From a virus, in IMG/VR virus record IMGVR_UViG_3300000117_000327, positions 1 through 21,644 of that record: 21,644 nt of DNA; one strand, 5' to 3'. The position numbers were made by a program, and so were the translations under genes. Positions 9,118-11,127 of this stretch are shown one piece after another (position 1 is the first letter of the stretch; each line of letters starts with the position of its first letter). The notes beneath the pieces are model-generated. The model worked only from the letters and a program-made list of their open reading frames with translations. It was not told where the DNA came from and ran no database searches.

Positions 9118-9480
9118 TCAGGTCAAGTCGATACTCACCGAGATCTCACCAGCATGTAGATGCATCGTCCTATCCACAGCCTTGAAGCCAGCCCTGTCCA
9201 GTATATCCTTGGACGCCTCAAGCTGGACGTACTCAGACTTAGCACCTTGGGCCAGCTGTAACACCTTGGCTGCTGCAATCGTAGCATTCATGCCCAATGT
9301 CTCAGTCACTCTCTGCATCATGTACGCCTGCACATGTGTTGCCTTCAAAGCCTTACTGGCACTCACTCTGCCACTCTCACCCTTGGCGTACCCAGCCGTT
9401 TGTGCTGCTTCTGTGATACTACAGCCAGTGGCTACAAGCGTATCAACCAGCACAGTCTGTTTGTCTGTCAGTTGTTTCAT
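9118..9480 (-). CDS. terS: Terminase small subunit
   Basis: This 120-residue protein has the classic start of small terminases: LTDKQTVLVDTLVATGCSIT, then EAAQTAGYAKGESGRVSASK, which is the helix-turn-helix that recognises phage DNA. A central helical part for oligomerisation follows (NATIAAAKVLQLAQGAKSEY), then LEASKDILDRAGFKA. It would form a ring that binds the packaging start site and feeds DNA to the large subunit. Unusually it is about 3.1 kb from terL, and its gene is bracketed by pairs of six- or seven-base C runs. Confidence 0.85.
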   Translation of the reverse strand: MKQLTDKQTVLVDTLVATGCSITEAAQTAGYAKGESGRVSASKALKATHVQAYMMQRVTETLGMNATIAAAKVLQLAQGAKSEYVQLEASKDILDRAGFKAVDRTMHLHAGEISVSIDLT

Positions 9481-9491
9481 TCCAAAGAGAA

Positions 9492-9511
9492 CCCCCCCTG
9501 TAATCCCCCCC
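9492..9511. repeat. Two C7 runs upstream of the small terminase gene
   Basis: Seven-base C runs at 9492-9498 and 9505-9511, separated by TGTAAT, become two G7 runs in the terS leader. A second pair (C6 at 9060-9065 and C6 at 9067-9072) lies just beyond the terS stop. Confidence 0.6.
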
Positions 9512-9541
9512 TTTATCGGGCATGATTTTGCACCTCGTCAA
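9512..9541 (-). promoter_or_regulatory. Possible promoter of the small terminase gene
   Basis: On the minus strand, TTGACG (9541-9536) and GATAAA (9517-9512) are 18 bases apart and 32 bases upstream of the ATG. The -35 is good and the -10 is weak. No operator palindrome overlaps it. Confidence 0.3.
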
Positions 9542-9604
9542 CGCACATTTACCTTACGGTGTATGCTCGCCGCATGGGCAGCTTATTCAGCTGGAATAAA
9601 CTGA

Positions 9605-9924
9605 TGTCAGTTTAATCACACAAACGTTGGGCCGTTTGATCACCCTACCACCAACACACCCCGTCGAGGGGTATGTTGTCGGGGTTTTATGATTATTCCC
9701 TTCTCAAGATAGATGGAGTGTTTTGCACCCTGTCATAGCAAGCCTAATCACACACATCCTAGAATCTGCAAAACACAGCTTTTTGTTTCTAAGTATCTTG
9801 GAATCGCCTTCGCGATTGTCACACGCGCTCGCCGCTAGGGCACACACAAATGCCTAAGTTTAACCTCCAGTTGGGCCATAACAGCCTCGATCCCGCAATG
9901 GCGTGGACAGGCTGGCGGCTGACA
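9605..9924. other. Intergenic region between leftward and rightward halves, with small hairpins
   Basis: I find no supported gene here. Three inverted repeats stand out: CAAACG / CGTTTG at 9621-9638 with a 6-base loop; an 11-bp arm pair with one mismatch at 9652-9678 (CAACACACCCC / GGGGTATGTTG), followed by CGGGGTTTT; and AATCGC-CTTC-GCGATT at 9802-9817. The second could act as a rightward terminator but its T run is only four bases. The region could hold the early promoter or a packaging signal. Confidence 0.45.
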
Positions 9925-10085
9925 GGCACTGAATCGGTTCCTTCCAACTTACGACATGCTCTTACTTGTGAGTCCTGCTCGCGCAGGACGTGGGCTTTCA
10001 GCTGCATTGCAGTTACTTGTGAGTCCTGCTTGCGCAGGACATGGCTTTCAGTTGCCGTTGCGTCGGTTCCTTCCAATTCAGTGCC
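9925..10085. repeat. 161-bp structured element with terminal inverted repeats and internal repeated hairpins
   Basis: The element is bounded by a perfect 10-bp inverted repeat, GGCACTGAAT (9925-9934) and ATTCAGTGCC (10076-10085). Just inside each end is the same 14-base direct repeat TCGGTTCCTTCCAA (9934-9947 and 10063-10076). The middle holds two copies of a 43-44 bp repeat (9962-10005 and 10013-10055), each containing a hairpin with arms GTCCTGC and GCAGGAC and a 4-base loop (TCGC or TTGC). Read as RNA it would be a closed multi-branch structure. It lies upstream of the first early gene. It could be a noncoding RNA, a leader control element, a replication origin or a small mobile element. 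Confidence 0.7.
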
Positions 10086-10201
10086 ACCCCAACAGCGCGG
10101 AGATACACCATTGCGGGCTGCGAGTCTGTGATGCCCTTCTACGCTTAATCTTACATGTGTGTGTAAGAGGACATTCAACAACATATGATACGGAGTACAT
10201 C

Positions 10202-10747
10202 ATGGCTAAAAAGACACAGACACCTCAACTTGACACATTCATCATCGATCAGTGGGCTGACAACATCCTCTCACATTACCCATCACAGTTCATGGACCCA
10301 GATGAGATGATGATCAATCAGGCATCAGGTGAGGAGAATTTACGCTACCAAGCAGATGAGAAATACACCATCGGCGGCGTCGTAGCACAGCTGGGGTGGT
10401 CGCTCACCAGCAAGCGGAAGTATCGCGACACACTGGAGCAACGCCGCATCCAAGCTGAAGAAGACTTCGGCAAGGACGACACACGGACATACGCAGCACA
10501 GGAAGCGGAAACCAAGGCCGTCGAGAAGATGGCATGGTATGAGTCACAGTTCCTGCTCTACCGGGAGATGTTCGAACGGCTGACATCTGTCACATGGGGA
10601 GAGGGACGCGCTGCACCAGCCAACGATCCTTATCACCTCAAGTGGTTCTCTGACTACAAGGACCGGATGTCAGATCGCAAGGTACTGTCAGACAGAACAA
10701 CAACGTCTGGCACAAGCCGCCTCGTCAAAGCACAGGCAGCTGAGTAA
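10202..10747 (+). CDS. Hypothetical first early protein
   Basis: The ATG at 10202 is preceded by acGGAGtacatc, which fixes the start. A longer in-frame extension back to 9956 would run through the repeat element and is not credible. The 181-residue product is acidic and mostly helical (QLDTFIIDQWADNILSHYPS near the N-terminus, then a central Arg/Glu-rich helix). It contains no known motif and no membrane segment. First genes of early phage operons often act against host functions, but nothing here shows that. Confidence 0.72.
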   Translation: MAKKTQTPQLDTFIIDQWADNILSHYPSQFMDPDEMMINQASGEENLRYQADEKYTIGGVVAQLGWSLTSKRKYRDTLEQRRIQAEEDFGKDDTRTYAAQEAETKAVEKMAWYESQFLLYREMFERLTSVTWGEGRAAPANDPYHLKWFSDYKDRMSDRKVLSDRTTTSGTSRLVKAQAAE

Positions 10748-10779: not shown

Positions 10780-10797
10780 ACATCCATGGAGCGTCCA

Positions 10798-11127
10798 ATG
10801 CAAACACAGACAATAGAGTTCAACAGCCCCGACATCAGCTACCCAATCCGCAACGATGATGGGACTGTCACCTACCCACTAGGCGATCATTACTACCGCA
10901 CCGTAGCCAAGCTGTTCACCAAAATGTGCAGCTACATCGGCCTTGATCACACCTTCTACAACGAAGAGAACCTGTACGACTGCTGCACACGATCAGACGG
11001 GATATCGTTTCGGATAGGCGCGACGATATTCGAATTACCCCTACTAACACAAAGCGCGAGAGTATACACGAACCCCGGACTGTACTGGGAAGAAGATCAG
11101 AGCCTAATCGAAGTCATACACGACTAA
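10798..11127 (+). CDS. Hypothetical early protein
   Basis: A 109-residue protein of unknown function. I choose the second ATG, at 10798, because GGAG lies 6 bases upstream; the alternative at 10786 has none. It is acidic and rich in Tyr and Thr (SYPIRNDDGTVTYPLGDHYY) and contains CSYIGLDHTFYNEENLYDCC with three cysteines. No domain is recognised. It is flanked on both sides by copies of the same GNRA hairpin. Confidence 0.65.
   Translation: MQTQTIEFNSPDISYPIRNDDGTVTYPLGDHYYRTVAKLFTKMCSYIGLDHTFYNEENLYDCCTRSDGISFRIGATIFELPLLTQSARVYTNPGLYWEEDQSLIEVIHD

Follow-up and report, generated by a model that had tools for sequence, protein, structure and literature searches.

What is the highly ordered stretch at positions 9925-10085, in the gap between the late and the early genes of a phage, and on which of its two strands does it act? 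The window analysed here is the whole stretch of DNA, an IMG/VR record of 21,644 bases, and its gene content is that of a temperate podovirus-like phage. The minus-strand genes encode the small and large terminase subunits, a head-tail connector and a capsid protein (Pfam/PHROG), and a Cro/CI-type repressor, a RecE-like exonuclease and a tyrosine integrase are encoded further right. The late genes are well conserved, in contrast to two early proteins of 181 aa (10202-10747) and 113 aa (10786-11127), neither of which has a PHROG or Pfam match. Among cultured phages, the TerL search found the Pelagibacter phage EXVC031P Hodr as the closest relative (64%). The initial annotation correctly placed the element between the late and early halves of the genome, but the gap measures ~720 bases, from the terS start at 9480 to the early ATG at 10202, and not 600. 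Our comparison of sequences suggests, with a probability of roughly 0.8, that this gap encodes a structured noncoding RNA of ~320 nt on the late strand that represents a new family. The main features of the locus are as follows.

9118 to 9480, minus strand: terS, terminase small subunit (Terminase_2; Pfam PF03592, PHROG 2538), the first late gene
9511 to 9541, minus strand: promoter-like site of terS, TTGACG...GATAAA, a GCGTTGACA-like box between the RNA and terS
9841 to 10163, minus strand: the whole predicted structured RNA, ~323 nt, with its 5' end near 10163 and its 3' end near 9841, supported by nested helices and the match of the covariance model R2
10202 to 10747, plus strand: first early gene, 181 aa, divergent from the RNA and without a family match

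The RNA is thereby located ~360 nt upstream of terS. The repeats described previously are all present. Perfect 10-bp terminal inverted repeats (GGCACTGAAT at 9925-9934 and ATTCAGTGCC at 10076-10085) are accompanied by TCGGTTCCTTCCAA, a 14-bp sequence present twice without mismatch and in direct orientation (9934-9947, 10063-10076), and two internal units of 43/44 bp (9962-10005 and 10013-10055) agree by 89% over 37 nt plus a GGCTTTCAGYTGC extension, each of them containing a 7-bp hairpin (9972-9989 and 10023-10040). The order is above chance, with a folding z of -5.0 for the minus strand of 9925-10085 and of -4.0 for its plus strand. The element was expected to fold into a closed structure as RNA, which our data support, although not within its limits of 161 bp. 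Additional nested arms were observed outside it (9892-9904 with 10105-10117, and 9842-9852 with 10154-10164), and hence we consider ~9841-10163 as one closed structure. Its folding energy is -134.6 kcal/mol (z -5.1) on the minus strand and -127.3 kcal/mol (z -3.9) on the plus strand. The parts of the predicted fold, all on the minus strand, are given below from the outside inwards, followed by one conserved segment.

10150 to 10163, minus strand: 5' arm CACACACAUGUAAG of the outermost A/C-rich stem, pairing with 9841-9858
9841 to 9858, minus strand: 3' arm CUUAGGCAUUUGUGUGUG of the outermost stem, from the fold
10121 to 10128, minus strand: 5' arm CAGACUCG of the conserved closing helix CUCG/CGAG, from shared sequence
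9882 to 9889, minus strand: 3' arm CGAGGCUG of the closing helix CUCG/CGAG, from relatives
10108 to 10117, minus strand: 5' arm CCCGCAAUGG of the covarying helix, with double compensation among four relatives
9892 to 9901, minus strand: 3' arm CCAUUGCGGG of the covarying helix, from the inverted repeat and relatives
10073 to 10085, minus strand: 5' arm GGCACUGAAUUGG of the hallmark stem (a terminal inverted repeat of the initial annotation), homologous to family helix 5
9925 to 9937, minus strand: 3' arm CCGAUUCAGUGCC of the hallmark stem (the other terminal inverted repeat), homologous to family helix 5
10065 to 10074, minus strand: 5' side GGAAGGAACC of the symmetric internal loop of purines, AAGGAA, within the 14-bp repeat, from conservation
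9936 to 9945, minus strand: 3' side GGAAGGAACC of the symmetric purine internal loop, from conservation
9949 to 10061, minus strand: 113-nt insert that replaces the short terminal hairpin of the relatives, from the fold and the insert length in the R2 alignment
10023 to 10040, minus strand: GNRA hairpin with loop GCAA, from the fold
10002 to 10012, minus strand: middle hairpin within the insert, from the fold
9972 to 9989, minus strand: GNRA hairpin with loop GCGA, from the fold
9861 to 9880, minus strand: conserved 3' segment UAUGGCCCAACUGGAGGUUA of subfamily 1, identical in L012, L082 and L084/L015

This model would account for the repeats. Their symmetry arises because the inverted and direct repeats make up both strands of a single long helix, interrupted by a symmetric internal loop of purines; in the predicted fold the terminal inverted repeats are helix 5, the 14-bp repeats are both sides of the purine loop, and the 43/44-bp repeats belong to the 113-nt insert. 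A search for a second phage with a loop insert of this size found none, and the insert with its two GNRA hairpins may be private to the window phage.

We collected ~160 loci through TerL and TerS searches. The relatives are metagenomic contigs, mostly closely related to each other within a subfamily. A 17-20-nt box, UAUGGCCCAACUGGAGG, is common to the window and three of the loci (L012, L015/L084 and L082), along with the nested helices. We then searched IMG/VR with the pattern of the conserved hairpin, CCGATTTGC...GCAAATTGGRRGG, and obtained 17 matching stretches, all 17 of which are on the late strand, preceding terS by 319-608 nt. The family has two subfamilies, the first consisting of the window, L012, L082 and L084, and both follow one plan, i.e. 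a CUCG/CGAG closing helix, a covarying helix and a stem with a purine loop. The closing helix was found in the window, L012, L082, L084 and most subfamily-2 loci, and some relatives have similar AC-rich/GU-rich closing arms outside it. The stem carries GGAAGGARCC on both sides, with GGAGGRRCC-type variants in subfamily 1. The purine loop GGAAGGAACC is near-invariant in subfamily 2 and the window, and L012, L082 and L084 have variants of the GGAGGAACC/GGAGGGGCC type. The window itself has the symmetric GGAAGGARCC/GGAAGGARCC internal loop flanked by the covarying outer helix.

The helices are supported by compensatory changes. Across 12 aligned subfamily-2 sequences, 94.4% of the cells are paired and 20 pairs are changed on both sides; the covariation is 0.369, against 0.160+-0.015 in 500 shuffles that retained kinship and at most 0.092 in slid controls. 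Helix 5 has 8 of its 12 pairs changed on both sides in the relatives. The inner closing helix of subfamily 1 has a different sequence in each phage and is paired in 4/4, and whichever two of the four sequences are compared, 3-6 of its 8 positions show double compensation. We built the covariance model R2 from 12 other IMG/VR phages, leaving the window out, and it recovers the minus strand of the window from 10131 to 9876, along the full model (1-149) with the 113-nt insert and at the same genomic place and strand as in the family. The E-values, which are rough owing to a short calibration, are 2.4e-8 for the window alone and 4.2e-7 for 370 kb. No match was found by R2 on the plus strand of the window. 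A looser pattern added the distant L219, whose TerS and TerL are 37% and 56% identical, and R2 matches it with E=6.7e-10, again a rough value from a short calibration. Its helix 6 reads GAUUUAC/GUAAAUU where the others have GAUUUGC/GCAAAUU, a compensatory change from G-C to A-U in an otherwise invariant helix. Two more matches to the loop pattern, L217 and L218, were rejected as chance hits through apparent pentapeptide-type coding repeats.

We found no convincing RNA match in 34 bacterial loci bearing TerL, mostly from MAGs, or in nine of their whole genomes. L216 (G008:C11:460320-460447), in a bacterial MAG labelled Halobacteriovorax, has a weak R2 match (E 0.98) that we take as chance. A DNA-level search of 50,697 phage records and 72,556 plasmids found no match. 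Rfam 15 has no match for the window at the gathering threshold of cmscan, and the scan of 15 relatives gave none apart from one unrelated tRNA in L173. A relaxed search of 9500-10700 gave matches at chance level only, and the Rfam models of GOLLD and ROOL match neither the window nor its relatives. No description of the element was found in the open-access literature, subscription papers being outside the search. As claimed initially, no gene explains the element; no open frame is conserved across the members on either strand, and we rejected the explanations by a protein-coding gene and by a tRNA.

The strand can be read from the mismatches within the strong helices, where an RNA tolerates G-U but not A-C. 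We counted both on structures predicted in a strand-neutral way, with G-U pairs forbidden, which gives nearly identical structures for the two strands. In 93 terS-upstream regions read on the late strand, G-U and A-C stand at 92:23, compared with 168:150 in dinucleotide shuffles, and 28 sequence clusters favour the late strand versus 7 the early one (p=5e-4, 35 informative clusters). The ratio is ~41:12 in the family of the window with the same type of prediction. The late strand also has the more stable fold in 16/16 family members and the lower consensus energy in 7/8 aligned groups of relatives, and the excess of G-U over A-C is not seen in every one of the eight groups. Comparative analysis has shown a conserved and covarying secondary structure of ~320 nt between the early operon and terS, with its substitutions pointing to a late-strand RNA. 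The suggestion of a new phage noncoding RNA is borne out by the covariation, the strand bias and the absence from Rfam, and the interpretation in the initial annotation as a whole is partly supported.

Among the alternatives, a late-strand antisense RNA controlling an overlapping early leader survives best, and we consider it rather unlikely. The early gene starts only ~40 nt from the 5' end of the RNA, hence an early leader begun upstream of the element would be complementary to the RNA over its whole length. Possible early-strand promoters were seen at the 3' end of the RNA in some relatives, e.g. TTGAGA-18-TATCAT in L167, and since the early operon needs a promoter, the early transcript may carry the complement of the RNA. 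Antisense control typically involves paired RNAs that are hypervariable. Against this reading, no consistently placed early promoter was found across the relatives, and the RNA is predicted to be a closed 5'-3' rod with no obvious conserved kissing loop.

The same promoter-like sites at the far end of the element also speak for a structured plus-strand 5' leader of the early operon. An early leader had been proposed, and it might for example act by antitermination like HK022 put or switch the translation of the first early gene. The element is directly upstream of this gene and its plus strand folds too (z -3.5 to -4.0), but we find such a leader improbable, given that the minus strand is favoured by all 16 members and by 28 of the 35 informative clusters and that R2 sees nothing on the plus strand of the window. 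The G-U excess and the late-strand stability also argue against a DNA cruciform acting as a replication origin, a cos/pac packaging site or a recombination site. Such a DNA element would adjoin terS, many phages have cos or pac near terS, and long inverted repeats are present in nearly all the relatives, including Hodr. A cruciform, however, gives no reason for a preference of G-U over A-C on one strand, and the sequence is free to change as long as the change is compensated, which is not how a DNA site bound by protein behaves, making this reading very improbable. The earlier proposal of an origin or packaging site hence fails for plain DNA, and a packaging-related RNA is still a candidate. 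A MITE-like mobile element, to which the perfect 10-bp terminal inverted repeats and the ordered layout had pointed, can practically be dismissed because all true IMG/VR matches are at one place upstream of terS, with no copies at unrelated sites with target duplication, a single copy in the window record, no match in the phage and plasmid DNA records and terminal repeats that vary by compensatory change.

The place of the fold is fixed but its sequence is not. On the late strand, 55% of the terS-upstream intergenic regions have a fold with z<-5 versus 7% of the coding controls scanned alike, and the gap nearly always has a strong fold among the 93 relatives, with the sequence differing between lineages. 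L106 has a TerS 92.5% identical to that of the window and only short pieces in common in the gap; L082 combines the subfamily-1 RNA with a second module common to subfamily-2 phages; and Hodr (L214) has an unrelated long hairpin at the terS-upstream place. The modules therefore appear to be exchanged. We speculate, tentatively, that this marine clade keeps a dedicated, modular and fast-evolving locus for structured RNAs, where unrelated folds replace each other as if swapped under conflict between phages or between phage and host.

Other structures were observed in the same gap. The Hodr hairpin (L214:5580-5790) is very long and near-perfect; it lies in the interval separating the divergent early gene from the terS region, and one of its arms overlaps the ribosome-binding site of the early gene. 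Another large module of inverted repeats (GCTACATATGGCATGGTTC...GGTTCTGCCATATGTAGC in L147) adjoins the terS promoter in L147 and L113, ~300-90 nt before terS, suggesting several RNA modules in tandem. In the window a second conserved hairpin, CCGACAACATACCCCTCGACGGGGTGTGTTGG, is at 9651-9682 on the minus strand between the RNA and terS, and it has varied counterparts in L015/L084 and L106. At 9492-9541 on the minus strand, the promoter-like TTGACG...GATAAA is followed by GGGGGGGATTACAGGGGGGG, with two runs of 6-7 G a few bases apart. The GCGTTGACA-like box was found in 59/93 terS-upstream regions, most of which have it at a similar distance, and the promoter-like site together with GGGGGGGATTACAGGGGGGG-type G runs likewise in 59/93. 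Possible readings of these G runs are a G-rich transcript start, a G-quadruplex and a cos/pac-like site.

What might a late-strand RNA do at this place? Transcription would run in the late direction and would yield either a discrete stable RNA or a longer late transcript that begins with this element. The nested helices of the RNA join its 5' and 3' ends and would protect and present the purine loop, a likely contact site for a phage or host protein; we therefore picture an RNA-protein element, which may tune either the terS/terL region or the switch from early to late. We regard a discrete RNA with a trans-acting or structural role as plausible, at somewhat below even odds, and a cis-acting late leader or antitermination-like element is possible with less confidence. 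Antisense control of the overlapping early leader and other roles, packaging included, each seem unlikely. A search for a promoter and terminator of the RNA's own gave none that is convincing. The promoter-like site between the RNA and terS means that terS need not depend on the transcript of the RNA, which mildly favours a separate RNA.

The RNA can be compared with several known systems. The phi29-type pRNA is a structured phage RNA linked to packaging, a link that the present RNA shares by position only; it has no Rfam match, and its phages have TerS and TerL, a pair that phi29 lacks to our knowledge. GOLLD and ROOL are long and highly structured phage or prophage noncoding RNAs, some of them from marine metagenomes, and are thought to be discrete RNAs (PMC12286853). 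The present RNA resembles them as a long and highly structured phage noncoding RNA, but has ~320 nt compared with >800 nt for many GOLLD, and is located upstream of terS rather than near tRNA islands as in GOLLD/ROOL. The put element of HK022 is an RNA antiterminator whose fold alone acts on transcription (PMC9378689). Compared by description, it is a phage RNA element with a possible way of working for ours, although put works in cis, on early transcripts of its own phage, and the present RNA is larger and on the late strand. The CBASS-activating bacteriophage RNA (cabRNA) of staphylococcal phages is a structured RNA that derives from the terminase region; its sequence varies from phage to phage, yet a fold is always predicted (PMC10686824). 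Both are structured and sequence-diverse RNAs of the terminase region; cabRNA comes from within the terS/terL coding sequence, whereas the present RNA is intergenic, upstream of terS and supported by covariation. By this analogy, a conflict of the CBASS type would be consistent with rapid change in a structured RNA close to terS.

A covarying RNA of ~320 nt that many uncultured ocean phages share, and that Rfam lacks, marks a gap in the RNA catalogue, which exists because phage genomes have been scanned mostly for proteins. Its fixed place ahead of the packaging genes combined with its hypervariability gives a testable handle on the roles of large phage RNAs. It also bears on the question whether structured RNAs next to the terminase genes serve in defence systems such as CBASS or are their targets.
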